This document shows, in pieces, positions 15,685-50,122 of a stretch of 64,000 nucleotides of DNA. The notes below the pieces were generated by a model that saw nothing but the letters and a program-made list of their open reading frames with translations, had not been told where the DNA came from and ran no database searches. The stretch comes from Alphaproteobacteria bacterium (GTDB lineage Bacteria > Pseudomonadota > Alphaproteobacteria > UBA6615): contig JBDXCV010000003.1 in NCBI GenBank assembly GCA_039980135.1, positions 496,001-560,000 of the forward strand, in the 5' to 3' direction. Within the stretch, counting starts at the first letter, position 1. Each line of letters starts with the position of its first letter. Made by a program: the position numbers and the translations under genes.

Positions 15685-16651
15685 GATAATGGTACCGGTC
15701 GTTTTCCCATTTGTAGAAGTCGCTGGCCGCGTCGAGCCGACTGGCCTCGTCGAACGCGCCGGCGTAGCCGAAACCTTCCATCAGACCGTGGAAGTGGAAC
15801 TCGATGATTGCGGCCTCTTCCTCGCTGATGCGGTCGCGCCAGCGGCCGATATTGCGGTCGGAGATCGCGGAGAAGTCGATTTTCTCGAAGCTGTTGCCCC
15901 GGGTCGGTTGTCCGAACACGGTCGGCACCAGCATGGTCGGGTCGGCTGGAATGCCGAGGAAATCGCAAATGCTGCCGAGTGCGGTTTCGCTGTCCGATAC
16001 CAGATCCTCGAAGCGCAGCACCATGTAACGGTCGGCACCGAAGCGGGCGGTGTTCGCATTTGCGTAGATCATGCCGAGACGCGCGCGATGAATGATGCTG
16101 GCCAGGGTCATGCGCTCATCCTCGCCGAACCGGGAGTAATGGCTTTCCACGCCGGATTTCAGGGCGCCGTAATTGTCGCGCGGGTCGCGCAGGAGCTGAA
16201 TGAACTTCGCGTTGGGGAATGCCGCCATCAGCTCCCCGGCCATCAACTCGATGCTCGTTTCCTTGATGACGTTCCAGGCTCGCCCGGCACTGCCCGCCGT
16301 TTGTGCAAACGTATCGAGCTGGTGGTGCACCACCGCCGTGATGTCACGGAGCTCGATTTCCGACAGTCCCGCCTTGAAGCGTTCATTGAAGGCCGTGAGA
16401 TCGAACCCGGCCGCATCTGCCGGTGTCCGCAACGTGTCGGAGAGGAACTCGCAGACGATCCGTTCGAGCCGCGCCCGGCGATCGTCATCGGTGTACTCCT
16501 CGCCAAGCCAGCGCGGGTGATAGGCGTACATGACCGTCGCGTCGTGGGGGTATACCGACAGGTCCGGATGTCCGTCGAACAGATTAAGAAACATCGTGGT
16601 GCCGCATTTGCGGTGGCCGCAGACGAAGAGGACGGGGGTGTCGAATGCCAT
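15662..16651 (-). CDS. Sulfotransferase family protein (3 of 3)
   Basis: The 329-residue protein begins MAFDTPVLFVCGHRKCGTTM, whose GHRKCGTTM is the PAPS-binding loop, and later has FIQLLRDPRDNYGALKSG, the 3'-phosphate-binding segment. It is a P-loop sulfotransferase. The ATG at 16651 is the only Met before the loop that does not run far into the neighbouring gene; it leaves 25 bp after the MBOAT stop. Neighbours are an MBOAT/SGNH pair and rfbB. The acceptor is unknown, but a sugar or glycan is likely given the locus. Confidence 0.88.
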   Translation of the reverse strand: MAFDTPVLFVCGHRKCGTTMFLNLFDGHPDLSVYPHDATVMYAYHPRWLGEEYTDDDRRARLERIVCEFLSDTLRTPADAAGFDLTAFNERFKAGLSEIELRDITAVVHHQLDTFAQTAGSAGRAWNVIKETSIELMAGELMAAFPNAKFIQLLRDPRDNYGALKSGVESHYSRFGEDERMTLASIIHRARLGMIYANANTARFGADRYMVLRFEDLVSDSETALGSICDFLGIPADPTMLVPTVFGQPTRGNSFEKIDFSAISDRNIGRWRDRISEEEAAIIEFHFHGLMEGFGYAGAFDEASRLDAASDFYKWENDRYHYRDSFAKS

Positions 16652-16676
16652 GGTCGAGGTGTCAGATGTTCTGAGG

Positions 16677-18044
16677 CTAGAAGCGGAAGTAGATGAATGT
16701 CTGCGAGCGGTCGATGAACAAGAAGGTCGCGACGAGAAGCACACCGAGTCCGGCGCTATAGCTTGCCGTACGCAGCAACGAACGCGGGTCGGCATGAATG
16801 AGCCGTTCGAAACGCACCCCGAAGCAAACCAGCGCGGCGATGGCGACGACGAGCCACATCTCCAATGTCGTACCCAATCCGCCTGCGCCACCGAAGGCAT
16901 TCGCGATGCTCGAGCCGAAATGGGCGAGGTCGGTCCAGCTGAACAGGAACAGGAGCCAGCCGATCGAGACCAGGGTGAAATTGGCCGTTTGCTGCGCGCG
17001 CATCGGCAGCCGGTCCCACCAGCGCGCCGATAGGTGATATCCGATCACCAGGGCTGCGTGGTACAGGCCCCAGACGATGAAGGTCCAGCCGGCACCGTGC
17101 CACAGGCCGGCGATGGCGAACACGATGGCGATGTTGCGCAGATAGTGTCGATTGCCACCCAGCGGCAGGTAGAGATAGTCGCGAATCCAGTAGGACAGGG
17201 TGATGTGCCAGCGGCGCCAGAAGTCACGCGGGTTGGCGGCGCTGTAGGGGCGGTTGAAGTTTGCCGGAAAGTCGAAGCCGAAAATCTTGCCCAGCCCGAT
17301 GGCGACCATCGAGTAGCCGTAGAAGTCGAAGTAGATCTGGAAGCTGTAACCAAGAATCACATAGACCGCCGCGCTGCCCGACAATTCGCCGGGGCTCTCG
17401 ACGAGCGGTGCCAGCTGGGCATCCAGCGTATCGGCGATCAGCACCTTGGCGGCCAGGCCGAAACAGATGTATCCCGCCGCTTCGGCCAGCCTTGCATGGT
17501 TCGGTACATAGGCCTTCAGCGTGGCGAGCGACTTCTGGACCTGATCGAAGCGCAGAATCGGCCCGGCCACCAGCTGGGGGAAGAAGCTGATGTAGAGGGC
17601 GAAGTCCGGGAGCCGGGCGGGTTGTGCGATGCGCGCGGTGTAGCGGTCGACGGCGTAGGAGACGAGCTGGAAGGTGAAGAAGGAGATACCCGCCGGCAGG
17701 ACGATGTCCTGGAACAGCGAGAAAACCTCTTCGGACTGCGCGGAGGCCGGCAGGACCGAGCCGATCACGAAGTCCGCATACTTGTAGTAGAACAGCGCCG
17801 CGACCGGTCCCGCGATGGCCAGCGCGAGCTGCCAGGGCCGGTCGCGCAGTTCATCGCTGCGGGTCAGCAGGTAAACCCAGACGACGCCGCCCACGAGAAC
17901 CGCCAGATGGTCGACGCCGGACAGGCCGTAGAACAGCCACGACGCGCCGAGCAGCACGTAGACGCGCGCGCTCCGCGGCAGGGCGAAGAACAAGGCGACG
18001 ACCGCGGCCAGAAAGAAGACAAAGCGGAATTCGTTGAAGATCAT
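16677..18044 (-). CDS. MBOAT family membrane-bound O-acyltransferase (AlgI-like)
   Basis: The 455-residue polytopic membrane protein has the MBOAT hallmarks of the AlgI/DltB branch: FFPQLVAGPILRF, NRPYSAANPRDFWRRWHIT and LWHGAGW with the catalytic His near residue 315. About ten hydrophobic segments are visible. Such proteins pass acyl (usually acetyl) groups across the inner membrane to a periplasmic partner that esterifies a polysaccharide. The adjacent SGNH-like gene (18058-19068), 13 bp upstream, is the expected partner. This implies O-acetylation of the exported glycan. The acyl donor and site are inferred from the family. Confidence 0.93.
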   Translation of the reverse strand: MIFNEFRFVFFLAAVVALFFALPRSARVYVLLGASWLFYGLSGVDHLAVLVGGVVWVYLLTRSDELRDRPWQLALAIAGPVAALFYYKYADFVIGSVLPASAQSEEVFSLFQDIVLPAGISFFTFQLVSYAVDRYTARIAQPARLPDFALYISFFPQLVAGPILRFDQVQKSLATLKAYVPNHARLAEAAGYICFGLAAKVLIADTLDAQLAPLVESPGELSGSAAVYVILGYSFQIYFDFYGYSMVAIGLGKIFGFDFPANFNRPYSAANPRDFWRRWHITLSYWIRDYLYLPLGGNRHYLRNIAIVFAIAGLWHGAGWTFIVWGLYHAALVIGYHLSARWWDRLPMRAQQTANFTLVSIGWLLFLFSWTDLAHFGSSIANAFGGAGGLGTTLEMWLVVAIAALVCFGVRFERLIHADPRSLLRTASYSAGLGVLLVATFLFIDRSQTFIYFRF

Positions 18045-27046: not shown

Positions 27047-28096
27047 CTAGGAGGCGACCACGACGGCGCTGATATTGTCATCGGTCGTCAGGGCAACGGA
27101 CGTGGTCCGGCCGACAAAGTTCCCGATTTCATAGGGTGGGGTGCCGTCGCCCGGCGACTTGATCGCGATGTCGTCACGGGTGAGCACATGGCCCGCGGGC
27201 AGATCATGTGCGGCAACGAGTTTCTTGCTCATCTTGGTCAGCGGCGCGGCCTCTTCGTCATAGGCGCGCTTGACCCCGTCGCCGAGCGCGATGTTGAGGC
27301 GTTGCAGGTCGCGGGTCAGCCGCCGCAGGCCGCTCGATTCCAGTGAGAAGGCATGGTCAGTCCCCTTCTTGGAGCGGTTGAGCGTGAAATGCTTCTCAAT
27401 CACGCGGGCCCCGAGCATGTAGGCGCCGAGGCCGAGCGTGTAGCCGTTGTCATGGCTCGAGAGGCCGACAACAGTGTCGGGGAAAGCCTCACGGAAGGTC
27501 TCGACGACACGCAGGTTGAGCTTGTCGAACTCGCACGGGTAACTGGCGGTGCATTGCATGATGCAGAGTTGCGGGTTGATGGCCGCCGCCGCGTCATGGG
27601 CCCGGCGCACATCATCCATGGTGCCGCCGCCGGTGCTCATGAACATCGGCTTTCCCTGCTTGGCGACATACTCGATCAGCGGGATGTTGGTGAGATCTCC
27701 GGACGCGATCTTGTAGGCCGGCAAATCGATTTCCTCGAGGAAGTCCGCGCTCTCGAAGTCGAAGGCGGTCGAGAAGAAGGTGATGCCGAGTTCCGCGGCG
27801 CAGGCCTTGAGCTCCAGATACTCGTCGCGCCCGAACTCGAGGAACTCGCGATGTTCGCCATAGGTCGGCGCGAAGGCATTTTCGCTATTGTAGGGCTCGT
27901 CGAACATCGCCTTGGTGTACATCGTGCGGTTCGCGCGCTTCTGAAGCTTGACCGCGTTGGCCCCGCAATTCGAAGCGGCCTTGAAGAGCTCCTTGCACTG
28001 GTCAAGGTTCCCCTGGTGATTGTGGCCGATCTCGGCGATCACATAGCAATCGTTGTCGTCGTTGATCGTGTACCCGTCGACGGTAAGTTCGCGCAT
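27047..28096 (-). CDS. neuB: NeuB-family nonulosonic acid synthase A
   Basis: The 349-residue protein begins MRELTVDGYTINDDND and contains YVIAEIGHNHQGNL, FSTAFDFESADFL, YKIASGDLTNIPL and VIEKHFTLNRSKKGTDHAFS of the NeuB TIM barrel, followed by a C-terminal SAF (antifreeze-like) domain. It condenses phosphoenolpyruvate with an N-acetylated hexosamine derivative to form a nine-carbon nonulosonic acid. It is the most divergent-looking of three NeuB paralogs here and lies between a DUF4910 gene and a glycosyltransferase-like gene. The sugar acceptor (ManNAc-, legionaminic- or pseudaminic-type) cannot be told from sequence alone. Confidence 0.92.
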   Translation of the reverse strand: MRELTVDGYTINDDNDCYVIAEIGHNHQGNLDQCKELFKAASNCGANAVKLQKRANRTMYTKAMFDEPYNSENAFAPTYGEHREFLEFGRDEYLELKACAAELGITFFSTAFDFESADFLEEIDLPAYKIASGDLTNIPLIEYVAKQGKPMFMSTGGGTMDDVRRAHDAAAAINPQLCIMQCTASYPCEFDKLNLRVVETFREAFPDTVVGLSSHDNGYTLGLGAYMLGARVIEKHFTLNRSKKGTDHAFSLESSGLRRLTRDLQRLNIALGDGVKRAYDEEAAPLTKMSKKLVAAHDLPAGHVLTRDDIAIKSPGDGTPPYEIGNFVGRTTSVALTTDDNISAVVVAS

Positions 28097-36843: not shown

Positions 36844-37875
36844 CTAGTCGAGCGCGCTTTCGTCAATGGGGGCGCCGGCTGCGATGGCTTGCGTCGCGCG
36901 TCGCCCAATCAGCGAGGGTTCTTCTGCCGGCGCAGTTCCTTCGGCCGGCCGCAGGCACACCGTATCGTCGGCCGACAGGATGCTGCCCGCCGCAATATCG
37001 CGCAGCGCGTGCACGGACCGCCGCACCGCCGTGCGAACTTCGGTCTCGACCGGAAGCACCCGTTTTCCGCCAGTGCCGATAAGAATCTCGGCCTGCCGCA
37101 CGCGATGGACAAGTGATTTGAGGTCGTCGGGATCGGCGGACAGCGCGTGGTCACGGAAATCCGAGTAAGCCTTGTCCAAGGTGAAATGTTTTTCGATCAC
37201 GCGGGCGCCGAGGGCGACGGACAACACGGCCGCATCGGGGCCGGCGGTGTGGTCGGAATAGCCGACCATGGCGCCGAGGGTTGCAAGGTCGGCGATCGCC
37301 GAGAGATTGGCATCGGCCTCCTCGGTCGGATAGCTGACCACGCAGTGGAGGATGACGACCCCCGGATCCACGCCGTTGGCGGCATGCACGGCGGCGATTG
37401 TCTGCTGGGCGGTGCGGACCTCGTCGAGAGTCGCCGCACCGGTCGACAGCAGGATCGGTTTGCCGGTCTGTGCCACCGTTTCGAGGAGCCGCGTGTAGGT
37501 GCAGTCTCCCGATGCGATCTTGAAGGCAGGCACGATCGGATCGAGCCATTCGACCGCAGGCAGATGGAACGGGGTCGACAGGAAAAGTACATCCTTCTCG
37601 CGCGCCGTGGCGGCGAGGGATTCGAATTCCGCGCGGGACAGTTCGAAGCGCCCGAGCTGTTCGAGGCGCGCCGGTTGATCGGCGGCGACGAGGCGGCTCG
37701 GTTCGATCGTCTGGAACTTCACCGCGTCGGCGCCGGCATCGGCGGCCGCTATAACCATCTCGCGCGCGACCTCGACATCGCCTTCATGATTGTTGCCGAC
37801 CTCGGCGATGATCATCACCGATTCGGACAGATCATGCTGGGCGATATGGATGGGTCTGTTGGGTTCAGCGGGCAT
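36844..37875 (-). CDS. neuB: NeuB-family nonulosonic acid synthase B
   Basis: The 343-residue protein has MIIAEVGNNHEGDVEVAREM, LFLSTPFHLPAVEWL, FKIASGDCTYTRLL and VIEKHFTLDKAYSDFRDHA, all NeuB TIM-barrel motifs, plus a C-terminal SAF domain ending in IGRRATQAIAAGAPI. It condenses PEP with a hexosamine derivative. The ATG at 37875 overlaps the end of the upstream acetyltransferase by 11 bp. It follows a gene order SpsF, Gfo/Idh, DegT, SDR, GNAT, NeuB that reads like a complete pathway from nucleotide sugar to nonulosonic acid, so this synthase is probably the last step of that module. Confidence 0.92.
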   Translation of the reverse strand: MPAEPNRPIHIAQHDLSESVMIIAEVGNNHEGDVEVAREMVIAAADAGADAVKFQTIEPSRLVAADQPARLEQLGRFELSRAEFESLAATAREKDVLFLSTPFHLPAVEWLDPIVPAFKIASGDCTYTRLLETVAQTGKPILLSTGAATLDEVRTAQQTIAAVHAANGVDPGVVILHCVVSYPTEEADANLSAIADLATLGAMVGYSDHTAGPDAAVLSVALGARVIEKHFTLDKAYSDFRDHALSADPDDLKSLVHRVRQAEILIGTGGKRVLPVETEVRTAVRRSVHALRDIAAGSILSADDTVCLRPAEGTAPAEEPSLIGRRATQAIAAGAPIDESALD

Positions 37876-38554
37876 GGCGATGGAAAATATGGCTGGCGGA
37901 GTCGAACCTGAATCCGAGCGATTCATAGAGTCGGATCGAGGCGGTGTTGGCGAGTTGCGTGCCGACCCGAATGGGCGCGCCCGGATTGCAGGTGCCGGCG
38001 GCGAAGGTGATCATGGCGCGCGCAAGGCCGGTGTTGCGCGCCGCGCTGTTGACGGCGACAAGGTCGATCACGACATCGCCGTCCCGGTCGAGCAGTTGCA
38101 GGAAACCGCTGACCTGTCCGTTCTGGCGACCGACCACCATCCATTCGCCGCGCTGGCCGGCGAAAAAATTTCTCGCCCAGTCGGCCTTGATCCGGTCTGC
38201 GATCCGGTCGTCGATCTCCGGGTCGGCATGAAAACGGTCGGTCCTGAAATTTTCACCGGCGATCCGCGCCACGTGGTCGGCGTCGTCGGGGTCACCCATG
38301 CCGACATCGGCGTTGAACTGTGCTGTCTCGACCCTGCCTGTTCGCAAGAAGCTGAGGCTTGTATCGACAAGCGTGAAACCCGCGGCCCGCAGAGCCTGGG
38401 GTCGTGCCAGGTCGGCAACCGGCACGCGGGCATCGATGAATGCCGGTGTCGGCACATCGATACGGGACGGCGCGGCATCGGCGGCGAGATGCCACGCCGG
38501 TTTACCAAGCCGTTCACCGAGCCAGGCATCCTCTGTCAGACCCGATGGGCTCAC
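37865..38554 (-). CDS. GNAT N-acetyltransferase (WecD/PseH/LegH-like)
   Basis: The 229-residue protein has a C-terminal GNAT domain with VIDLVAVNSAARNTGLARAM, which covers the acetyl-CoA pyrophosphate loop, and NTASIRLYESLGFR, the family's last strand. It would N-acetylate an amino sugar. GTG at 38554 gives a 4-bp GTGA overlap with the SDR stop and keeps the N-terminal domain typical of WecD-like enzymes; the ATG further upstream lies inside the SDR gene. Position between an SDR/DegT aminotransferase pair and a NeuB gene fits acetylation of the 4-amino intermediate of a pseudaminic- or legionaminic-type pathway. Confidence 0.82.
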   Translation of the reverse strand: MSPSGLTEDAWLGERLGKPAWHLAADAAPSRIDVPTPAFIDARVPVADLARPQALRAAGFTLVDTSLSFLRTGRVETAQFNADVGMGDPDDADHVARIAGENFRTDRFHADPEIDDRIADRIKADWARNFFAGQRGEWMVVGRQNGQVSGFLQLLDRDGDVVIDLVAVNSAARNTGLARAMITFAAGTCNPGAPIRVGTQLANTASIRLYESLGFRFDSASHIFHRHAR

Positions 38555-40746: not shown

Positions 40747-41757
40747 TCAGTGATAGTTGATGTCTTGCGGTTTGCCGGTTGTCACCGCGCGTTCAATGGC
40801 CAGCGATACGGCCATCGCGTCCAGCACGTCCGCGCGTGACACCTCGGCATCCCCGCCATCGAGAAGCAACGACACGAAGGACGGGATCAGGTCGCCCTTG
40901 AACGACCCGGGATAGGGATCGTCGAGAAGGTCCGGCGGCGTTTCGGGGTCGCGGCTGCGATAGAGCCGCGCCGCGTCGGGTGCGTTGCGCCAGGTGCCGT
41001 TCGTGCCGAACACAACCACGTCGTGGAAGTGGGGATAGACGCACGGAAAGTTTGCGCTGACCTTTGCGATGCTGTCGTCGGGAAACCGAAGCAGGGCGAC
41101 GACGGTGTCATTGAAAGAAAATTCGGTGTCACGGGAGGCGCGTTGCGTGCCCATGGCCGATACCTCCACGGGCCGCCGGCCGGTGAGCCAAAGCAGCAGG
41201 TCGATCATGTGGATGCCGCCGCCATGGGTGACCGAATAGAACGGCAACGTGCCGCGCCATCCGTTGAGGATTTTCTCCATCCGGCCATAATTATAGTCGC
41301 CTTCCAGATAGTAGATATCGCCCAGCTCGTCGCTGTCCAGAAGGGCCTTCAACCGCGCGAATCGCGGATACTTCCGAAGGATGAGGTTCGACGATATCTG
41401 AACATCGGGGCGTCGGGTCAGCGCCTCGGATATGGCCGCGAACTCCTCGTCGTGAAAGCAAAGCGGTTTCTCGACAAAAATATGTTTGCCCGCGGAGACC
41501 GCCGCCAGAACCTGTGCGGCATGGGCGTCGTCATAGGATGCGATCGAGACGGCGTCGATGTCCGGGTCGTCCAGCACATCTTTCGGGCTGGGGGTGGTTC
41601 GGGCATTCGGATGCCGGGCGGACACTTCGCCCAGATGAGTTTCGTCGATATCGCAAAGCGTTGTCACGCGGCAGCGGGAATCCTGTTCGAACCCGGCGAT
41701 ATGGGCCTCGCCGACCCCGAGACCGATGATTCCGACCCTTAATTCATGATCGTTCAT
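40747..41757 (-). CDS. Gfo/Idh/MocA-family oxidoreductase
   Basis: The 336-residue protein starts with a Rossmann motif, RVGIIGLGVGEAHIAGF (residues 7-23), and has the family hallmark HIFVEKPLCF with the conserved Lys, then a C-terminal alpha/beta sheet domain with YNYGRMEKILNGW and SVTHGGGIHMIDLLLWL, where the second His is usually catalytic. It oxidises or reduces a sugar hydroxyl with NAD(P). The ATG overlaps the SpsF-like stop by 4 bp. Enzymes of this family occur in nonulosonic-acid and amino-sugar loci; the substrate is not assigned. Confidence 0.9.
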   Translation of the reverse strand: MNDHELRVGIIGLGVGEAHIAGFEQDSRCRVTTLCDIDETHLGEVSARHPNARTTPSPKDVLDDPDIDAVSIASYDDAHAAQVLAAVSAGKHIFVEKPLCFHDEEFAAISEALTRRPDVQISSNLILRKYPRFARLKALLDSDELGDIYYLEGDYNYGRMEKILNGWRGTLPFYSVTHGGGIHMIDLLLWLTGRRPVEVSAMGTQRASRDTEFSFNDTVVALLRFPDDSIAKVSANFPCVYPHFHDVVVFGTNGTWRNAPDAARLYRSRDPETPPDLLDDPYPGSFKGDLIPSFVSLLLDGGDAEVSRADVLDAMAVSLAIERAVTTGKPQDINYH

Positions 41758-42449
41758 GTTGACGCCAATTCGACGCCGGCGCGCAGTTTCAGGATCTCGT
41801 CGAGACCATAGGACCAATGGGGCGCATCCATTCTTGCCACCAGTGTCTCGAACGCTCGGAAATCGTCTTCGGTATCGACGCTCAGATTGATATCTCCGAG
41901 CGCCCGGCCGCTGGTGAATTCGGCAATGCGCCAGTCCTCGGCTGTTCGATAAAACAGCGGGGTGACATGCTCGATATCCTCAGCCGACGTCATCAAGGTT
42001 CGGGCCCGGCGGAAAGCGCCGGCGTCGAGCAGTTCGACGGACATTCCCTTGGGGTAGGTGCGATGTTTCACGTTGGTCACGAGGTCGGCTGTCGTTTTTG
42101 CGTAGAGGGCGCGCGCCTCGGTGACGAGCGTTGTGTCGAGCAGCGGGCTGTCCCCGCTGACCCGGACAAAGGCGTCGGCGCCCGTCTCGTCGAGCGCCTT
42201 TATGAAACGCGAGGCAACATCATCCAGCGGCCCACGTACGCAGGTCACGCTTTGTGTGTGACAGAAAGCGGCCACCGGGTCGTCGTCGGCATTGCCGGAC
42301 GTTGCCACCACGGTCCGGATATCGGGCGCCAGGCGCGCCAGCCGCTCAAGCAGGTAGCCGAGCAATGGCTTGCCGTGGGCCGGACGCAACACCTTGCCCG
42401 GCAAGCGTGCCGAACTCATGCGGGCCTGAACGACGACTACCGGGGGCAA
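41754..42449 (-). CDS. SpsF-type cytidylyltransferase, first gene of the 28-kb operon
   Basis: The 231-residue protein begins VVVVQARMSSARLPGKVL, the hallmark of the SpsF/CMP-sugar cytidylyltransferase family, and later has RVSGDSPLLDTTLV with the metal-binding Asp, and NLSVDTEDDFRAF. It probably activates an acidic sugar with CTP. The frame starts at TTG (42449); an upstream ATG at 42463 is out of frame and meets a stop. A weak GGAAAA sits about seven bases upstream. It heads the uninterrupted minus-strand run that ends with rfbB, so its leader controls most of the locus. Confidence 0.85.
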   Translation of the reverse strand: MPPVVVVQARMSSARLPGKVLRPAHGKPLLGYLLERLARLAPDIRTVVATSGNADDDPVAAFCHTQSVTCVRGPLDDVASRFIKALDETGADAFVRVSGDSPLLDTTLVTEARALYAKTTADLVTNVKHRTYPKGMSVELLDAGAFRRARTLMTSAEDIEHVTPLFYRTAEDWRIAEFTSGRALGDINLSVDTEDDFRAFETLVARMDAPHWSYGLDEILKLRAGVELAST

Positions 42450-42460
42450 TTTGAATTTTC

Positions 42461-42471
42461 CATGCTACCGC
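42461..42471 (-). promoter_or_regulatory. ops-like element (RfaH recruitment site candidate)
   Basis: The minus strand reads GCGGTAGCATG from 42471 to 42461, 10 of 11 matches to the core GCGGTAGCGTG of the enterobacterial ops/JUMPstart element that recruits RfaH to paused RNA polymerase. It lies in the transcribed leader of the longest operon, 12 bases before the spsF start codon, and the window encodes an RfaH/NusG paralog at 45903. The function is inferred; an 8-mer core could occur by chance in GC-rich DNA. Confidence 0.45.
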
Positions 42472-42511
42472 AGTCCGGGTGAATCAATCTCCCGAACCAA
42501 ATGTGTCGCAA

Positions 42512-42529
42512 CCGCCCTGCCGAGGGCGG
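42512..42529 (-). other. GC-rich hairpin in the spsF leader
   Basis: CCGCCCT (42512-42518) and AGGGCGG (42523-42529) form a perfect 7-bp stem with a 4-base loop. On the minus strand it is followed by TTGCGACACATTTGG, not a U-tract, so it is not a standard intrinsic terminator. It sits about 40 bases before the ops-like element and may be a pause or leader-folding element. Confidence 0.5.
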
Positions 42530-42700
42530 ATTCGCACATCGAATGTCACATACGAAACGGCGCGGTCAGTGCACTAAATCCGGCCCGGGGACCGCATAAA
42601 AACCGAGACCGGAATTTCCGACCCTGGCGGCCAGTACACTGTTTTTACGAACAATTCCGTATGCACACGAAGTGATCACGAACCGGATTTCACCCGGAGC

Positions 42701-42715
42701 GTTCACTTTGTGAAC
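42701..42715. promoter_or_regulatory. Perfect 15-bp palindromic operator, copy 1
   Basis: GTTCACTTTGTGAAC has 6-bp perfect arms around a TTT centre. The identical 15-mer occurs at 47076-47090, ahead of the winged-helix regulator gene. Here it overlaps the predicted -10 and transcription start of the spsF-operon promoter, the position expected of a repressor site. The binding protein is inferred to be the regulator encoded at 46424-47068. Confidence 0.75.
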
Positions 42716-42743
42716 AGTATGTTGGCAAGGGTGATTCAGTCAA
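42714..42743 (-). promoter_or_regulatory. Predicted sigma70-type promoter of the spsF operon
   Basis: On the minus strand TTGACT (42743-42738) and TACTGT (42719-42714) are separated by 18 bp, a reasonable -35/-10 pair. Transcription would begin near 42707 and give a leader of about 260 bases. The regulator promoter at 47088-47117 has the same arrangement. No other pair in the leader looks as good. Confidence 0.55.
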
Positions 42744-42764
42744 GTCTGCTGACGCACCGTCAAC

Positions 42765-42790
42765 GACCGCGAAAAGCAGTTTTTCGGGTC
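42765..42790. repeat. Imperfect inverted repeat after the flippase-like gene
   Basis: GACCGCGAAAA and TTTTCGGGTC pair as a 10-bp stem with one bulged base around GCAGT. It lies just beyond the stop of the minus-strand membrane-protein gene and upstream of the spsF promoter, so it could end that transcript, but no run of T follows it. Confidence 0.4.
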
Positions 42791-42802
42791 TGAAATCCGC
42801 GT

Positions 42803-43732
42803 CTACCGAGGCGGTCTTTTCGTGACCAGCCAAAGCACCCCGCCGGGCAGCCCGCCGACCAGCAGAACGATGCCGAACAGGATCGATACACTGACGGCCT
42901 GGGTTGCACCGATCCCGAGGGCGCCGAGCAGAATGACCAGGATCTGCTCGCGGACCCCCCAACCGGCGATCGAGATCGGGATGCTGACCAGCAGGATCGT
43001 CGGTGTCATTGCGACCATGTAAACCAGGAAACCAGCTTCCCCGCCCAGCGCGTGATCGAGGCTCCAGGCGAGCGCGATGGTCGCCGCGTGGATGGCGATG
43101 GACAGACACAGAGTGGGGATCGCAACGCCCGGGCGCAGGCAAAGGGCGACCGCATCCCGCGACAGCAGGATCGCGAAGTTGATGATGCGAATATGCTGAA
43201 ATCGCCGGGTCAGGGAATTGTCGAACACGCACAACATGACCACGGCGGACCAGCCGCCCGTGAGGACGGCGATCAATCCCGTTGCCGCGATGGGGTTGTC
43301 GAGTTTCTCGACCAGTAGCGGGGTGATCGCTGTCGTAGCGACAATCAGAACGATCAGGCCGATGATCCGGTCCAGCAGAACGCTGTTGGTTGCGGTTTGC
43401 ACGCCAACGCCGGTCCGCCACAGATAGAACACGCGCATTGCGTCACCGCCGATGCTCGACGGTAGCGTCTGGTTGAAGAACATGCCGATGAGGAAAAGCC
43501 GCAGCGCTGTCGTCGCGGGAAGTTCGACGTTCAGGCTTCTGAGAACCAGCCGCCAGCGCGCCGTGCCCAGGGCGACGATCGCGGCGAAGAAAAGGGCCGC
43601 CAGACCGATCCAGGGAATCTGCGCGTCCGCCAGTTTCCCGAGGACCTCCGCGAAGTCGATTCCGCCGAGCACCCACGTGATCAGGGCGACGGAGACGGCC
43701 AGTTTGGCGAACATCAAAAGGTGTTTTTGCAT
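42803..43732 (-). CDS. Flippase-like/LPG-synthase-TM family membrane protein
   Basis: The 309-residue protein has about eight hydrophobic segments and the family's conserved loop NQTLPSSIGGDAMRVFYLWR. It belongs to the lysylphosphatidylglycerol synthase TM region/UPF0104 family, inner-membrane proteins found in many glycan and lipid loci and proposed to flip or move lipids. It has its own transcription unit between the spsF leader and a divergent neuB gene. A role in handling a lipid-linked precursor is inferred from the family and location only. Confidence 0.85.
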   Translation of the reverse strand: MQKHLLMFAKLAVSVALITWVLGGIDFAEVLGKLADAQIPWIGLAALFFAAIVALGTARWRLVLRSLNVELPATTALRLFLIGMFFNQTLPSSIGGDAMRVFYLWRTGVGVQTATNSVLLDRIIGLIVLIVATTAITPLLVEKLDNPIAATGLIAVLTGGWSAVVMLCVFDNSLTRRFQHIRIINFAILLSRDAVALCLRPGVAIPTLCLSIAIHAATIALAWSLDHALGGEAGFLVYMVAMTPTILLVSIPISIAGWGVREQILVILLGALGIGATQAVSVSILFGIVLLVGGLPGGVLWLVTKRPPR

Positions 43733-44026
43733 CGGTCTGGAAGGGCTGCTTCGGTCGGGCCGGGGCCGGAATGAGCGGGTCTGCGCGCGGTGGGTGGTTC
43801 AGATTAGATCGGGTGTCCGAGTGCTACCTACATCAACTGGCGCGGCAGGCATATCCGTGATCCCGCATTCCGCTGCATCGCAACAGATGTTCAGGGCGGT
43901 GCGGGCCGCATTTCCGGCTGTTTCGCCCTGATTGTAGGGCTTTCTTAACCAAACTCGCATTCAATGGGTGAGGCCGAATGTGCCGGGTTTTCCACCCGTG
44001 GCGCAGCGCGGCGAACGAGAAACCGG
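43733..44026. promoter_or_regulatory. 294-bp divergent intergenic region
   Basis: This spacer separates the minus-strand membrane-protein gene from the plus-strand neuB-neuA pair, so both promoters should be here; I see no confident hexamers and no copy of the GTTCAC palindrome. On the minus strand GTAGGTAGCAC near 43821-43831 shares the GGTAGC core of ops elements but not its flanks. Confidence 0.35.
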
Positions 44027-45109
44027 ATGACAAAGCCCATGCATGCACATGATGAGGACCATTCGTTTGAAATTTCGGGCCGCACCGTGGGTGGCGATGC
44101 GCCCGCCTATCTGATTGCCGAGGTCGCGCAAGCACATGACGGATCGCTGGGGACGGCGCATATGTTCATTGATGCCGCGGTGGATGCGGGAGCGGATGCC
44201 GTCAAGTTTCAGACGCATATTGCAGATGCCGAATCGACACGCGACGAGCCCTTTCGCGTGGCGTTCAGTAAGCAGGACAAAACCCGGCTCGACTATTGGC
44301 GGCGCATGGAGTTCAGCGCCGAACAATGGGCCGGACTCGCCGACCATGCGCGGTCGTCCGGACTGGATTTCATGAGTTCGGCCTTCTCGCTCGAGGCCGT
44401 CGCCCTGTTGCGGCGGCTGGATGTCCCGGTCTGGAAGATTGCCTCGGGTGAGGTTCGCACCCGGGGAATGGTCGCGGCCATCTGTGCCGACGCAAAGCCC
44501 GTTCTGTTGTCGACGGGGATGAGCCCCTGGGGTGATATCGATGCCGCGGTCAGCGAGATCGGCGCGGCAGGGTCATCGGTTGCCGTGCTCCAATGTGTCA
44601 GCCGGTACCCCACGCTGCTCGAGGATGTCGGCCTCAATGTCATGGCGGAGATGCGCGCGCGCTACGCCTGTCCGGTGGGGCTGTCCGATCATTCGGGGCA
44701 ACCCTGGCCGGCGCTCGCCGCGATCGCGCGCGGCGCGGCCGTCGTCGAGTTGCACCTCACATTGTCGGAACGGATGTTCGGGCCGGATGTACCGTCGTCG
44801 CTGACCGTTGATCAGTTCCGGACGGTGTCCGATATGCGTGATGCCGTCGCGACAATGGATGCGCACCCCGCAGACAAGGACGCGGTCGCGGAAGATCTTG
44901 CGGACATGCGCGCGATGTTCGGGCGCAGCCTGGCGCCGAAGCATGACCTTGCGGCCGGCACACTTGTTACCGAGGACATGTTGCTCGCCAAGAAACCCGC
45001 GACGGGCATTCCCGAGAATGACATCGATGCGGTCGTCGGGCGAACGCTGGTACGCGATGTCCCGTCCGATCGCCTGATTGCCTGGTCGGATTTGCATGTT
45101 GACGGTTGA
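44027..45109 (+). CDS. neuB: NeuB-family nonulosonic acid synthase C
   Basis: The 360-residue protein has YLIAEVAQAHDGSLGTAHM, FMSSAFSLEAVALL, WKIASGEVRTRGM and PVLLSTGMSPWGDIDAA, with a C-terminal SAF domain, so it is a third NeuB-type synthase. It differs from the other two at the barrel end (VELHLTLSERMFGPDVPSS instead of VIEKHFTL), which suggests a different substrate. The start at 44027 is preferred over 43964, which would add a basic non-conserved leader; ATG at 44039 is also possible. It is followed 12 bp later by its own CMP-sugar synthetase gene, forming a two-gene plus-strand unit. Confidence 0.9.
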   Translation: MTKPMHAHDEDHSFEISGRTVGGDAPAYLIAEVAQAHDGSLGTAHMFIDAAVDAGADAVKFQTHIADAESTRDEPFRVAFSKQDKTRLDYWRRMEFSAEQWAGLADHARSSGLDFMSSAFSLEAVALLRRLDVPVWKIASGEVRTRGMVAAICADAKPVLLSTGMSPWGDIDAAVSEIGAAGSSVAVLQCVSRYPTLLEDVGLNVMAEMRARYACPVGLSDHSGQPWPALAAIARGAAVVELHLTLSERMFGPDVPSSLTVDQFRTVSDMRDAVATMDAHPADKDAVAEDLADMRAMFGRSLAPKHDLAAGTLVTEDMLLAKKPATGIPENDIDAVVGRTLVRDVPSDRLIAWSDLHVDG

Positions 45110-45121
45110 GGTGACGACGCC

Positions 45122-45877
45122 ATGAGCTGGGCAGACGGAAGCCGTTCACCGGCGGTCCTCGCCGTGATACCGGCGCGTGGTGGTTCCAAGGGTATTCCGG
45201 GGAAAAACATGAAGCGGCTCGGCGGGCTTACGCTCGTCGGCCGGGCGACACGGCTGGCCGTGTCGCAGAACTGGATCGATCAGGTCATCGTCTCGACCGA
45301 CGATGCCGAGATCGCCGCCGAGGTCGCGCGTCAGGGCGGTGATGCGCCGTTTCTGCGGCCGGCGGATCTGGCCGGTGATACGGCATCCTCGGACGATATG
45401 TGGCGTCATGCCTGGCGGTCAGCCGAAGATCATTACGGGCGGCGTTTTGATGTCTCGGTTCTGCTCGAACCGACGAGCCCCCTGCGCCAACCGGCCGACC
45501 TGACGGCCACGATGACGGCGCTGTTTGGCGGCGCGTTTCATGGCGCGGCGACGGTCAGCCCCACACCGGCGCATTACGCGCCGCAGAAAACCCTGACGGT
45601 CAACGAGGGCCGGGTCGGGTTTCTGCTCGAGGAAGGCGCGCGCACGGCGCGCCGCCAGGACGTGCCGCCGCTCTACCACCGCAACGGGCTTTGCTATGCG
45701 CTGCGCCGTGAACCGTTTCTCGACGGCGCACCCATCCTCGATGAGGCCTGTGCAGCCGTCATTATCGAACGTCCGATTGCGAATATCGACGAGCCGTTTG
45801 AACTGGAACTTGCCGAATGGCTATTGCAGCGACAGGGGCTCATCGTCACCGATACGCCGCTATCCGAAACGGCTTGA
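45122..45877 (+). CDS. CMP-nonulosonic acid synthetase (NeuA-like), copy 2
   Basis: The 251-residue protein carries VIPARGGSKGIPGKNMKRLG (about residues 15-34), the CTP-binding motif of acylneuraminate cytidylyltransferases, and LLEPTSPLRQPADL typical of the family. It would make the CMP-activated form of the acid produced by NeuB-C next door. It is divergent from the copy at 3224-3949 in sequence, so the two likely activate different acids. The ATG at 45122 lies 12 bp after the neuB stop with GAGGTGA upstream. It converges with the RfaH-like gene across only 25 bp. Confidence 0.92.
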   Translation: MSWADGSRSPAVLAVIPARGGSKGIPGKNMKRLGGLTLVGRATRLAVSQNWIDQVIVSTDDAEIAAEVARQGGDAPFLRPADLAGDTASSDDMWRHAWRSAEDHYGRRFDVSVLLEPTSPLRQPADLTATMTALFGGAFHGAATVSPTPAHYAPQKTLTVNEGRVGFLLEEGARTARRQDVPPLYHRNGLCYALRREPFLDGAPILDEACAAVIIERPIANIDEPFELELAEWLLQRQGLIVTDTPLSETA

Positions 45878-45902
45878 AACCGCGCCGGGGTTAATTCGCC
45901 TG

Positions 45903-46427
45903 TCAGCCGGCGGGGGCCAACGCGGTCATCGGCATTTTCACGCGGACCTGACGACCCAGCAGATTCAGCAGAAGAAAAACGCGATGCTGGTCCGAAGGCG
46001 CATCGAAAATACCGATATGGTCGGCCATTGAGCCTTCGGTAATGCGAACCTTGTCGCCCTTCTGCAGGCCGGCGCGCTCGCCGAGGATGACATACCCGCT
46101 CGCATCCTCGTGGCGGCGAATATCGTCGATGACATTGTCCGGCACGGGTGCGGGTTGCCCGCTGTGGCAGATCAGTTCGCTCACACCGACGGTCGAATTT
46201 AGCGCCCGCCACCGCGCGCGCTCGGGGTCCATGCCCACGAACAGGTAGCCGGGAAAGAGCGGCTTCTGGACGCTGTCTGTCTTGCGGGCGTGGCGTCGGC
46301 GCTTGATGTAACGGGGAAGATATCCATCGAACCCCTGGCGCAGGATATGCGCCAGCGCCTTGAATTCACCATTGGGGTGGGTCTTGACGACGAACCAGCG
46401 TTTCGCGTCGTTCATTGTCGGGTTCAT
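45903..46427 (-). CDS. RfaH/NusG-like transcription antiterminator
   Basis: The 174-residue protein has an N-terminal NGN domain (RWFVVKTHPNGEFKALAHIL, then QKPLFPGYLFVG) and a C-terminal KOW domain with KGDKVRITEGSMADHIGIF. This is the layout of NusG paralogs such as RfaH, which bind RNA polymerase and suppress termination and polarity in long surface-glycan operons. A specialised paralog is more likely than the housekeeping NusG because it lacks the secE/ribosomal-protein neighbourhood and sits in the glycan locus. Its ATG overlaps the regulator stop by 4 bp, so both are made from one transcript. Its probable target is the ops-like leader at 42461. Confidence 0.9.
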   Translation of the reverse strand: MNPTMNDAKRWFVVKTHPNGEFKALAHILRQGFDGYLPRYIKRRRHARKTDSVQKPLFPGYLFVGMDPERARWRALNSTVGVSELICHSGQPAPVPDNVIDDIRRHEDASGYVILGERAGLQKGDKVRITEGSMADHIGIFDAPSDQHRVFLLLNLLGRQVRVKMPMTALAPAG

Positions 46428-47068
46428 GGCTGCGCCTCTTCGACCGGCGGTACGCTGATCTGCAAGAGGCCGGGCACGATAACCCGGCTTGCGGGATATT
46501 CGCGCAGGAGCGAATCGTAGGCCGCCTGCGGATTCGAAAGCACCGTCAGCAGCAACGCGTCTATGTCGCCGGCTTCGTTGATTGACGGCACGACCGGCAG
46601 ATGGGCGAAACTGGCCTGCGTGTGGGCGGGGTCCACGATAGCGACAATCTCGACGCCCGACGCCTCACACAAAGAGGCGACTTCGGTCAGTTCGCTTGCG
46701 CCATAGAGGGCGATACGATTCCAGCCCCGTCGGCCGGCTTCGTTCAGGGCGTCGGTGCATTGGCTGCGCGCGTCGCGGAAGAAACGAAATGAGTCCGACA
46801 GATATTCGGCCGTCAGCCGACTCTTCTCGGTAAACCCCTGGGGTGTGAGGTAGTAGGCATACCGGTTTGCCGGCGCCTGGCTGACCTTGATCAGGCCCTT
46901 CTTCACACAGCGTTTCAGATAGGCATTCGTCAGCCCGAGCGCGATGCCCAGATCCTGTGCGACCGTACGCTGGGTGATGCGCTCATTCTCGTGAATGGCG
47001 TTCAGGATACCGAGAGTGATCTCGGAATCGTCGGCTTTGCCGACCGGTATGCGTTCAGCGTTGCTCAT
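46424..47068 (-). CDS. Winged-helix transcriptional regulator with Rossmann-like sensor domain
   Basis: The 214-residue protein has a winged helix-turn-helix at about residues 16-75 (RITQRTVAQDLGIALGLTNA as helix-turn-helix, then YYLTPQGFTEKSR as the wing). It is followed by a C-terminal Rossmann-like domain (RIALYGASELTEVASLCEAS, VEIVAIVDPAH, DIDALLLTVL) that resembles PglD_N/CoA-binding folds, so it may sense a nucleotide or nucleotide sugar. The gene starts 7 bp beyond a perfect palindrome (47076-47090) that overlaps its own -10, which suggests autorepression. It is co-transcribed with the RfaH-like gene. The same palindrome stands before the spsF operon. Confidence 0.85.
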   Translation of the reverse strand: MSNAERIPVGKADDSEITLGILNAIHENERITQRTVAQDLGIALGLTNAYLKRCVKKGLIKVSQAPANRYAYYLTPQGFTEKSRLTAEYLSDSFRFFRDARSQCTDALNEAGRRGWNRIALYGASELTEVASLCEASGVEIVAIVDPAHTQASFAHLPVVPSINEAGDIDALLLTVLSNPQAAYDSLLREYPASRVIVPGLLQISVPPVEEAQP

Positions 47069-47075
47069 GCGCGGT

Positions 47076-47090
47076 GTTCACTTTGTGAAC
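47076..47090. promoter_or_regulatory. Perfect 15-bp palindromic operator, copy 2
   Basis: GTTCACTTTGTGAAC is identical to 42701-42715. It begins 7 bp from the regulator start codon and overlaps the predicted -10, so bound protein would block initiation of its own operon. Confidence 0.75.
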
Positions 47091-47117
47091 ATATGGTGTT
47101 CAGGCGGTGAACGTCAA
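47088..47117 (-). promoter_or_regulatory. Predicted promoter of the regulator/RfaH-like operon
   Basis: On the minus strand TTGACG (47117-47112) and TATGTT (47093-47088) are 18 bp apart. Initiation near 47081 would leave only about a dozen leader bases before the ATG at 47068. The arrangement relative to the palindrome matches that at the spsF promoter to within a base. Confidence 0.55.
47098..47112. promoter_or_regulatory. Second, imperfect operator half of a tandem pair
   Basis: GTTCAGGCGGTGAAC keeps the outer GTTCA/TGAAC arms of the palindrome but has a GC-rich centre. It is 22 bp from copy 2, two helical turns, and covers the -35/spacer of the same promoter, suggesting cooperative binding on one DNA face. 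Confidence 0.5.
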
Positions 47118-47139: not shown

Positions 47140-49044
47140 TTATCGCGGGTTGCTGAAATTCTCCGTCACGTAAACCACCAGTTCGTCGACACATTCCTCG
47201 ATGCTGCGGCCGCTCGTATCGACGCTGATGTCGGGATCCGCCGGCTCCTCATAGGGGGCGGAGATACCCGTGAATTCCTTGATGTCTCCCGCGCGGGCCC
47301 GTTTGTAGAGCCCTTTCGGATCGCGCGATTCGCATGTCGCGACATCCGCGTCGATGAAGACTTCATGGAAGGTGTCGCCCGCCGCTTCGCGCGCCCGATC
47401 GCGGTCGGCACGATAGGGTGAGATGAAGGCCGTGATCACGATCAGGCCGGCATCCGCCAGCAGTGCCGCGACCTCGCCCACGCGCCGGATATTTTCGGCG
47501 CGGTCTTCCGGCGAGAAGCCCAGATTGGCATTCAACCCCGTCCGCACATTGTCGCCGTCCAGCACATAGACCTGATAGCCCTTGTCGAACAGACGCTGCT
47601 CCAGCGCCATCGCCAGGGTCGATTTGCCCGCGCCCGACAGGCCGGTGAACCAAAGCACGCCGGGCTTGTGACGGTTGCGAGCAACCCGTCGGGCCGGATC
47701 GACGCGATGATCGACCTCCGTCAGATTGGTGCCGCGCACCGTGACCGCCTGGCGCTGATCGGGATAGATGCCGAGCGAAACGACGCCGCCACCCAAAGTC
47801 AGATGTCTGTCGACGACGACGATCCGTCCCGTGTGCGGCAGGTTGTCGTGATCGTCGAAGGCGACGAGCTGGCTCGTGCGGATCACAACGTCGGCGATTT
47901 CGTCGCGCACGACCCGTGTCGCGTCATGGTCCGACAATGCGTCGATATCGATCACCCGCTCGATCTGCTCGACCACGGCATCGACCCGTTTCGGGCCGAT
48001 CTTGAGTTCGCATGTGGCGCCGATCTCCAGCGGTGTCTCCGCCAGCCAGAAGAGGCGGGCATGAAACACGTCCGATTCGATCGGCGCCGCCATCTCGTGG
48101 CTGGCGATCTCGCCGCGTTCCACGAAAATCTGTTCGTCGAGCGTGATGCCGACGGATTCGCCGGCGCGCGCCGTGGTCGCGTTCCCGTCGGTGTTCCAGC
48201 TTTCGATGGATTCCACCCGGGCCGTCCGGTTGCTGGGCGAGAAGACAAGTTCGTCGCCGACATTCAGGGTACCCGATTCGATCCGTCCGGCAAGGATGCG
48301 ACGCTCGTCGAACTTGTAGACGTCCTGCAGCGGCAGGCGCAGCGGTTGCTCGGCTGCGGATGCCGGGTGCTCGAACTGCGGCAGGGTCTCGAGAATGGTC
48401 GGCCCTTTGTACCAGTCCATCTTGTCTGACGTCGTTGCGACGTTGTCGCCCTCGCGCGCCGAAATCGGAATGATCTGGCGCGGCGTGATGCCGATCCCCT
48501 CGAGATACTGGCGATACTCGGCCTCGATGGCGCGGAAGCGATCTTCGTCATAATCGACGAGGTCCATCTTGTTCACGGCGACGGCGACCTCGCGAACCCC
48601 GAGCAGTTGCAGCAGATACATATGATGGCGTGACTGGCGGCGCACGCCCTGGTCGGCATCGATCATCAGCAATGCCGCATCGGCATTCGATGCACCGGTT
48701 ACCATGTTGCGGATGAACTCGCGATGGCCCGGTGCGTCGATCAGCACATATTCGCGCGCATCGTGACGGAACCATATCTGCGAGGTATCGATCGTGATGC
48801 CCTGGTCGCGCTCCGCCTTCAGGCTATCCATCAGGAACGCCCATTCGAACGGCATCCCGCGCCGTCGGCACATTTCCTCGATGGCTTCGAGTTTGCCGTC
48901 AGGCAATTGGCCGGTGTCGTGGAACAGGCGGCCCACCAGCGTGGATTTTCCGTGATCGACATGGCCGACGATCACCACGCGCATTTGCTGCTCGGGTGCC
49001 GGGCGGGCTTTGACGGGATCGGCGATGGTCTGTGCGTTGGCCAT
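47140..49044 (-). CDS. cysN: Bifunctional sulfate adenylyltransferase subunit 1/APS kinase (CysNC)
   Basis: The 634-residue protein joins a CysN GTPase (GHVDHGKST at residues 27-35, VLIDAPGHREF and NKMDLVDY as other G motifs) to a C-terminal APS kinase with P-loop FTGLSGAGKST near 467 and ISPYRADRD. With CysD it makes APS from sulfate and ATP, driven by GTP, then phosphorylates APS to PAPS. PAPS is the donor for the three sulfotransferases in the window. Its ATG overlaps the cysD stop by one base. No PAPS reductase or sulfite reductase is nearby, so the pair appears dedicated to sulfation rather than cysteine synthesis. It may read through into the regulator. Confidence 0.96.
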   Translation of the reverse strand: MANAQTIADPVKARPAPEQQMRVVIVGHVDHGKSTLVGRLFHDTGQLPDGKLEAIEEMCRRRGMPFEWAFLMDSLKAERDQGITIDTSQIWFRHDAREYVLIDAPGHREFIRNMVTGASNADAALLMIDADQGVRRQSRHHMYLLQLLGVREVAVAVNKMDLVDYDEDRFRAIEAEYRQYLEGIGITPRQIIPISAREGDNVATTSDKMDWYKGPTILETLPQFEHPASAAEQPLRLPLQDVYKFDERRILAGRIESGTLNVGDELVFSPSNRTARVESIESWNTDGNATTARAGESVGITLDEQIFVERGEIASHEMAAPIESDVFHARLFWLAETPLEIGATCELKIGPKRVDAVVEQIERVIDIDALSDHDATRVVRDEIADVVIRTSQLVAFDDHDNLPHTGRIVVVDRHLTLGGGVVSLGIYPDQRQAVTVRGTNLTEVDHRVDPARRVARNRHKPGVLWFTGLSGAGKSTLAMALEQRLFDKGYQVYVLDGDNVRTGLNANLGFSPEDRAENIRRVGEVAALLADAGLIVITAFISPYRADRDRAREAAGDTFHEVFIDADVATCESRDPKGLYKRARAGDIKEFTGISAPYEEPADPDISVDTSGRSIEECVDELVVYVTENFSNPR

Positions 49045-49838
49045 TACATGTACCCCGAGGTGCGCAGGCGCTCGAAGGAATCTTCGGCTTCGGTGTCCAT
49101 CAGCCGTCCCGCGCGTTCGGGTTCCCGGGTCATCTCGAGTTCCTCGATAATCTCGTCGATGGTTGCCGCGTCGCTGTCGATCGGGGCCGTGATGTTCTTC
49201 TCTCCCAAAGAGCGATAGCGCTTCCCGCCCTGGGAGAAATAGAGCGGGTTGATCGGGATATTCTCTCGCTGGCTGTATCGCCAGATGTCGATTTCGGTCC
49301 AGTGCAGCAACGGGTGAATGCGCAGATGGGCGTTCTCGGGGGTGTCGGTCGTGTATTGATCCCAGAACTCGGCGGGCTGGTCACGGAACTCCCATGCCCC
49401 GTCGGTCGCGCGGGGGCTGAACACGCGTTCCTTGGCGCGGGTTGCTTCCTCGTCGCGCCTGATCCCGACGAAGATACCCTTATAGCCACCGTCCGCCAGA
49501 AGGTTGGCCAAGCCGGCGCTCTTGCGGGCGGCCGCGCGTGTCATCGGCGGCAGGCTCGGGTCCATTTCGCTTTCGGGCGGACAATCGATAACGATCAGGT
49601 CGAGGTCCCACTCTTTCGTATACTGATCGCGGTAGGCATAGACCTCGTCGAGCTCCATGCCGGTGTCGAGCTGCACCACCGGGAACGGCACCTTTCCGAA
49701 GAAGGCCTTGCGCGCGAGCCAGAGCACGACATTGGAATCCTTGCCGATCGACCAGAGCATGGCGAGCGGGCGGGCGCAGGCGTAGGCCTCGCGCAGGATG
49801 TAGACGCTACGGGATTCGAGTATGTCCAAACGGTCCAT
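49044..49838 (-). CDS. cysD: Sulfate adenylyltransferase subunit 2 (CysD)
   Basis: The 264-residue protein has LAMLWSIGKDSNVVLWLARK, the PP-loop of ATP sulfurylase small subunits, and QLDTGMELDEVYAYRD, then WTEIDIWRYSQREN and FSQGGKRYRSLG. It adenylates sulfate with ATP as a complex with CysN. The ATG at 49838 is preferred over a TTG at 49847. The gene lies divergent from the nucleotide-sugar dehydrogenase across a 284-bp spacer. Length and motifs are complete. Confidence 0.96.
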   Translation of the reverse strand: MDRLDILESRSVYILREAYACARPLAMLWSIGKDSNVVLWLARKAFFGKVPFPVVQLDTGMELDEVYAYRDQYTKEWDLDLIVIDCPPESEMDPSLPPMTRAAARKSAGLANLLADGGYKGIFVGIRRDEEATRAKERVFSPRATDGAWEFRDQPAEFWDQYTTDTPENAHLRIHPLLHWTEIDIWRYSQRENIPINPLYFSQGGKRYRSLGEKNITAPIDSDAATIDEIIEELEMTREPERAGRLMDTEAEDSFERLRTSGYM

Positions 49839-50122
49839 TGTACACAAATTTCTTGTTGGTTATTTTAATTCACACGATGTTTGTGGCGAACCACATAGGT
49901 CAGTCCTTAAGGCAACGCAAGAGGGCCAGCCGAATTTCTCTGGTTTTCTTCGCGCGTTGAGGATTTTCGACCCTGTTGCGTCAAAACATGAGCCGATGCA
50001 AGCGGAATTGTCGCAAAACCCTGCTGATCGCGCGATCTATCGGACTTGGCATCGCGCCCCTGTCCGCGTTATGAGCCACCCGCAATGTCGCGATGGCGCG
50101 GCACACAGCGGAGCGGAAGAAG
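49839..50122. promoter_or_regulatory. 284-bp divergent intergenic region (cysD / sugar dehydrogenase)
   Basis: This is one of the most AT-rich stretches of the window. On the minus strand TAAAAT (49867-49862) could be the cysD -10, with only a weak TTCGCC 17 bp upstream. On the plus strand GGAG at 50110-50113 precedes the chosen ATG by nine bases. I see no copy of the GTTCAC palindrome here. Confidence 0.4.

Follow-up and report, generated by a model that had tools for sequence, protein, structure and literature searches.

We analysed a 64,000-nucleotide stretch of an alphaproteobacterial genome (assembly GCA_039980135.1, contig JBDXCV010000003.1, positions 496,001 to 560,000; hereafter the window), in which a gene for a putative transcriptional regulator is followed by a gene for an RfaH-type NusG paralog. 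Both lie upstream of a long run of surface-glycan genes that begins with spsF, and the leader of spsF contains an operator, a predicted RNA hairpin and an element resembling the ops site of Escherichia coli. An earlier reading of this DNA, the original prediction, held that the gene pair, the operator and the ops-like element form a two-layer switch, in which one regulator controls initiation and an antiterminator controls elongation. The features on which the argument depends are listed below in the direction of transcription.

47098 to 47112, no strand assigned: operator 2 of the regulator promoter, GTTCACCGCCTGAAC, at the -35 box; absent from the original prediction
47088 to 47117, minus strand: promoter of the regulator-rfaH transcript, TTGACG-18-TATGTT
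47076 to 47090, no strand assigned: operator 1 of the regulator promoter, GTTCACAAAGTGAAC, overlapping the -10 box
46424 to 47068, minus strand: regulator of 214 amino acids with a winged helix, a long helix and a small C-terminal Rossmann domain (family scan and predicted structure)
45903 to 46427, minus strand: RfaH-type NusG paralog of 174 amino acids (family scan)
42714 to 42743, minus strand: glycan operon promoter, TTGACT-18-TACTGT, assigned by eye (a promoter scan gave TTGACT-16-CATACT)
42701 to 42715, no strand assigned: operator of the glycan promoter, GTTCACAAAGTGAAC, in the spsF leader, overlapping the -10 box
42472 to 42498, minus strand: predicted RNA hairpin GGUUCGGG..CCCGGACU, directly upstream of ops
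42461 to 42472, minus strand: ops element TGCGGTAGCATG in the spsF leader (the 11-mer GCGGTAGCATG spans 42461-42471)
41754 to 42449, minus strand: spsF, an SpsF-like cytidylyltransferase gene with a TTG start, first of the glycan run (family scan)
612 to 41817, minus strand: co-directional glycan gene run encoding epimerases, an aminotransferase, NeuB-type synthases, sulfotransferases, methyltransferases, a transporter and others

The regulator and RfaH-type genes overlap by 4 bp (ATGA), and because of this overlap they very likely share a transcript, as had been predicted. We collected 80 regulator loci from public genomes, 79 of which could be tested for rfaH adjacency and for an upstream operator. 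In 78 of the 79 loci with room for it, rfaH lay directly 3' of the regulator. Of these 78, 76 fell within the set limits, and L132 and L194, where the overlap of the matches is a little larger, were added. A class-wide survey, based on an even draw of 289 alphaproteobacterial genomes, detected an RfaH-type gene in 72 genomes and a regulator match in 65; about seven of the regulator matches were weak, and most of the strong ones adjoin an RfaH-type gene. The source genome has exactly one NusG-domain gene besides the RfaH-type gene, presumably that of the housekeeping NusG.

The palindrome GTTCAN5TGAAC occurs at four places in the whole 3.76-Mb genome. Two are at the regulator promoter and one is in the spsF leader, which confirms the operator originally proposed for that promoter; the fourth spans the stop codon of an unrelated gene and was rejected as a regulon member. 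In 72 of the 79 loci an operator lies no more than 250 bp upstream of the regulator; at least two copies are present in 48, mostly 21-24 bp apart. Over 1.24 Mb of sequence we counted 137 matches, with 129 at regulator promoters, 6 at other ops leaders and 2 elsewhere, and a control palindrome of permuted halves gave zero matches in the same 1.24 Mb. TTGAC stands immediately before the upstream site in 31 of 45 tandem operator pairs, and in those 31 a -10-like hexamer follows 17-18 bp on and is overlapped by the downstream site. Operators that overlap the -35 and -10 boxes are placed as is typical of repression, and the geometry seen here points to repression. The palindrome was also present at 10 of 13 loci with strong TIGR04176 matches, which encode short proteins without a Rossmann domain and lie mostly outside the class, and for this reason we tie it to the winged-helix family. 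In one alphaproteobacterial family (L250-L261), a TIGR04176-like winged helix is found inside an open frame of about 700 codons, and a search for the operator near these loci found none.

The window ops, TGCGGTAGCATG, is identical to GGCGGTAGCGTG of E. coli at 10 of 12 positions, and only about 11 nt separate its end from the TTG codon at which spsF probably starts. The operator lies upstream of it, and the distance from the operator start to the extended ops is 234 bp, in agreement with the spacing of about 240 bases first proposed. The word GCGGTAGCRTG occurs three times in the genome, and the sole intergenic copy is the one in the spsF leader; the remaining two lie in antisense orientation within genes unrelated to it and were rejected as regulon members. 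In relatives, the extended consensus is TTCACCCGGACTGCGGTAGCRTGG, and its flanks TT, GGACT and TG are conserved independently of the search pattern. Among the 289 genomes, the pattern CACCCN5GCGGTAGCNTG was found at 28 places in 27 genomes, compared with 3 for a backward control. An RfaH-type gene is present in 26 of these 27 genomes, compared with 72 of 289 overall (Fisher p = 8e-17); the exception (G221) has ops without an RfaH-type gene match, but with the regulator just before the ops. The original prediction depended on the element being present in the leaders of homologous operons, and there we found it. The non-redundant sites number 75, and almost all belong to genomes that have an RfaH-type gene. 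A terminator-like stem with a T run lies between the glycan promoter and ops (42606-42624, minus strand); such sites were no commoner than in shuffles (5 versus 4.0), and we set it aside as evidence.

The hairpin directly upstream of ops is an addition to what had been claimed for this leader. In the window its stem reads GGUUCGGG-A-GA-UUGAU-UC-A-CCCGGACU, with 8 bp + 2 bp. Across sites, the minimum free energy had a mean of -12.3, compared with -9.8 when the upstream sequence was shuffled (Wilcoxon p = 7e-7). None of 200 swaps of arms between sites paired as well as a site's own arms, and with variant arms only, 3 of 300 swaps equalled the own-arm pairing. In a covariance-model alignment, which was fitted to the structure and so is biased towards it, 37 cells were changed on both sides, compared with 21.8 +/- 3.6 in shuffles. 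The score for covariation, 0.165 versus 0.114 +/- 0.010, was above all 500 shuffles and all slid versions. A covariance model of hairpin and ops matched 32 of the 289 genomes at E <= 1e-5, and 30 of the 32 have an RfaH-type gene. On folding, the hairpin ended 10 nt ahead of pause base T11, the same as in E. coli JUMPstart, whose sequence was matched in 2368 E. coli genomes. The JUMPstart stem-loop itself was already known (Weinberg 2010, PMC2864571). Searched up to E = 5, the leader in the window gave no match to the RF01707 covariance model, and 12 relatives gave none at gathering score; assignment of the leader to a known Rfam family was rejected for want of a credible match. At a locus from another proteobacterial class (L246), a gene for a short MarR_EPS protein without a Rossmann domain is followed by rfaH and by a near-identical hairpin and ops.

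The 75 ops sites occur in three architectures. At 44 sites, ops is directly 3' of rfaH, mostly 20-120 bp after it, and just one of the 44 has its own operator. The other 31 sites include 21 with an operator within 400 bp. Among these 21 are a divergent type (L146, L153-L155), in which the ops leader shares the promoter region of the regulator, and remote types, in which ops lies away from rfaH, as in the window. From these counts, therefore, the operator nearly always governs the predicted promoter that feeds ops, and nothing supports the two-layer reading more strongly than this regularity. Two genomes (G038 and G248) have operator-less ops sites and an RfaH-type gene, and the survey of the 289 genomes did not find the regulator in either. 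Three or four operators lie upstream of the ops leader at L141, L146 and L153-L155, where this leader is oriented opposite to the regulator-rfaH transcript. In three further loci (L029, L102 and L157), ops is directly 3' of the regulator with no rfaH between, and in the genome of the first (G036) rfaH is on a different contig.

The two proteins have recognizable relatives. The N-terminal winged helix of the regulator matched HTH_24 (1.2e-12), and like the MarR_EPS family (TIGR04176) the regulator is associated with polysaccharide gene clusters. The structural model comprises the winged helix, the long helix and the small Rossmann domain; residues 113-209 resemble Rex NAD domains (structural match, Z about 9), as well as a UDP-sugar dehydrogenase domain and one from WbaP (Z 8-9). 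These matches may reflect a common fold only, and Foldseek with the whole regulator gave weak matches only. The RfaH-type protein shares with the RfaH family (TIGR01955) an ops element in the leader of its putative target operon. In the E. coli RfaH structure, ops base T6 enters a pocket of H20, R23, Q24 and R73, and the ops-contacting residues are K10, H20, R23 and R73 (PMC5995543). The window protein keeps H20, R23 and Q24, and among 53 relatives the H20 position is H or N, that of R23 mostly R and that of Q24 mostly Q. Of the autoinhibitory contact, R138 is kept and E48 is not. AlphaFold2 modelled the C-terminal domain as a beta-barrel (53 homologs, a small alignment; mean pLDDT 89), and this domain is predicted to be NusG-like (beta), unlike the alpha-hairpin of free E. 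coli RfaH.

Taken together, the gene pair, the operators at both promoters and the ops leaders support the original prediction that a long operon for a surface glycan is under a two-layer switch, to which we assign a probability of about 0.8. At the level of sequence, the gene pair, the operators, their overlap with promoters, ops, the conserved hairpin and the co-occurrence are demonstrated, and from these we infer binding, repression, the direction of control, a ligand, recruitment and read-through, as follows. In the first layer, the regulator would bind GTTCAN5TGAAC at its own promoter, where the sites cover the -35 and -10 boxes, and at the glycan promoter, where the site covers the -10 box, blocking RNA polymerase at both. 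A ligand of the Rossmann domain, which we guess to be a nucleotide or sugar-nucleotide precursor, would release the regulator and open both promoters. In the second layer, derepression would also yield the RfaH-type protein, and polymerase arriving from the glycan promoter would pause at the hairpin and ops about 240 nt downstream. There the RfaH-type protein would read the non-template ops bases, load, exclude NusG and sustain both transcription and translation along the whole operon.

The regulator could instead be an activator or dual regulator that recruits or remodels polymerase, in which case the circuit would combine positive feedback with antitermination. Co-activation of the regulator, rfaH and the glycan operon would put the same site at both promoters too, and some leader operators stand beside a -35 box without a clear -10 box beneath. 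Most sites, however, overlap the -35 and -10 boxes themselves, and tandem sites bracket the core promoter, and we consider activation unlikely. Another reading concerns the RfaH-type protein, which might act in cis as a NusG-like, non-autoinhibited factor that loads by proximity, with the hairpin and ops serving chiefly as a pause or translation element. The beta-barrel predicted for its C-terminal domain, the missing E48, the 44 of 75 ops sites directly behind rfaH and a 2026 preprint that ties monomorphic RfaH to neighbouring operons (PMC13015549) all speak for such a factor, whereas the retention of ops where it is remote from rfaH and the largely kept H20/R23/Q24 pocket speak against it, and on balance we find it rather unlikely. 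Finally, the ops-like word in the spsF leader could be a chance match; in favour of this stand the two further copies of GCGGTAGCRTG, antisense within genes. The extended element and hairpin nevertheless recur in leaders across the class and co-occur tightly with RfaH, and this conservation and co-occurrence led us to reject chance as highly improbable.

Several observations weigh against the two-layer switch. Ten of the 31 non-contiguous ops sites lack an operator within 400 bp, for example in the regulator-bearing genomes of L077 and L115, and the upper hairpin stem is often interrupted across sites. The regulator scored 64 bits against its best NCBIfam match, TIGR04176 (residues 15-93), below the curated cut-off of 88, and the RfaH-type protein scored 125.7 bits against its best family, TIGR01955, below the curated cut-off of 144.5. 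Two of the ops-contacting positions differ from E. coli RfaH: that of R73 is V or I in relatives and V in the window protein, and that of K10 is H, R, Q or K in relatives and H in the window protein. Most relatives are metagenome-assembled genomes, the co-occurrence statistics ignore phylogeny, and the ops search pattern fixed CACC and GCGGTAGC, so that conservation of the core bases is uninformative and the flanks alone count.

We conclude from the sequence comparisons that a two-signal module is conserved across many Alphaproteobacteria. It would represent a second, widespread RfaH lineage with a predicted recruitment site and a defined operator, and its three architectures, with ops directly behind rfaH, divergent or remote, provide a natural experiment. 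With the module, experiments can ask whether RfaH must switch from alpha to beta in order to recognise ops, whether a hairpin at the pause aids its loading, and how cells place both the initiation and the elongation of transcripts from very long operons under a single signal. A bolder and tentative idea, possible but doubtful, is that of a portable cassette across Alphaproteobacteria and at least one other proteobacterial class. Such a cassette would join a flux-sensing repressor, whose Rossmann domain reads a sugar-nucleotide, to a non-autoinhibited yet ops-specific RfaH on one composite leader of operator, pause hairpin and ops. If true, ops specificity and fold-switching, which are linked in current models of how RfaH evolved, would be separable.

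The glycan run is longer than the 28-kb operon ending at 14.6 kb that was originally proposed. The co-directional genes continue to about position 612 and then into neighbouring sequence, interrupted by two short stretches where a quick gene caller favoured the opposite strand. Just upstream of the regulator, sequence reading without a family scan identified a gene for a CysN/C-type protein, apparently preceded by CysD (47140-49847, minus strand), and the glycan run holds two sulfotransferase-domain genes (15662-16900 and 9738-10949, both minus strand). Because sulfate-activation and sulfotransferase-domain genes are both at the locus, the glycan may be sulfated. Three NeuB-family synthases are encoded at the locus (43964-45109, plus strand; 36844-37926 and 27047-28096, minus strand), which suggests more than one nonulosonic-type sugar.

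The original prediction also held that no such system had been described, which proved too strong. Passages of Wang et al. 2020 (PMC7593976) report that genes of RfaH cluster CL4 neighbour envelope genes and a gene for an HTH regulator, and CL4 probably includes this regulator-rfaH pair; for CL4, those passages describe neither an operator nor a leader element, and neither its architecture nor a mechanism. What stands is that the open-access papers searched gave no description of the operator, the extended ops, the hairpin in this lineage or the three architectures; on this regulator with RfaH in Alphaproteobacteria, the relevant ones among them were Wang et al. 2020 and the 2026 preprint, which links monomorphic RfaH with adjacent operons (PMC13015549). 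According to the passages of Wang et al., UpxY and TaA are encoded within the operon that they serve (PMC7593976).

The regulator is like Rex-type repressors in joining an N-terminal winged helix to a C-terminal Rossmann domain, but the Rossmann part alone aligns well, and the likeness is one of fold. With the TIGR04176 MarR family EPS-associated regulators it shares a related winged helix and the operator GTTCAN5TGAAC, whereas that 105-position model is without a Rossmann domain. Bacteroides UpxY, Myxococcus TaA and Bacillus LoaP are, like the RfaH-type protein, specialised NusG paralogs, and none of the three is known to us to have a partner repressor with an operator that recurs in the leader of the target. 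The module also resembles the RfaH-ops/JUMPstart system of E. coli (RF01707): both have a NusG paralog, the ops core GCGGTAG, long envelope operons as targets, and polysaccharide leaders with a hairpin directly upstream of ops at the 10-nt spacing to T11. In contrast to E. coli, rfaH is here encoded together with a gene resembling that of a repressor, and its protein lacks R73 and has a C-terminal domain predicted to be beta. The hairpin, too, has a sequence of its own (CACCCGG), to which RF01707 gave no match in the scanned loci. Because the cut-offs were missed, the module is not a formal member of TIGR01955, TIGR04176 or RF01707, and we conclude that it is a variant of the RfaH-ops kind.

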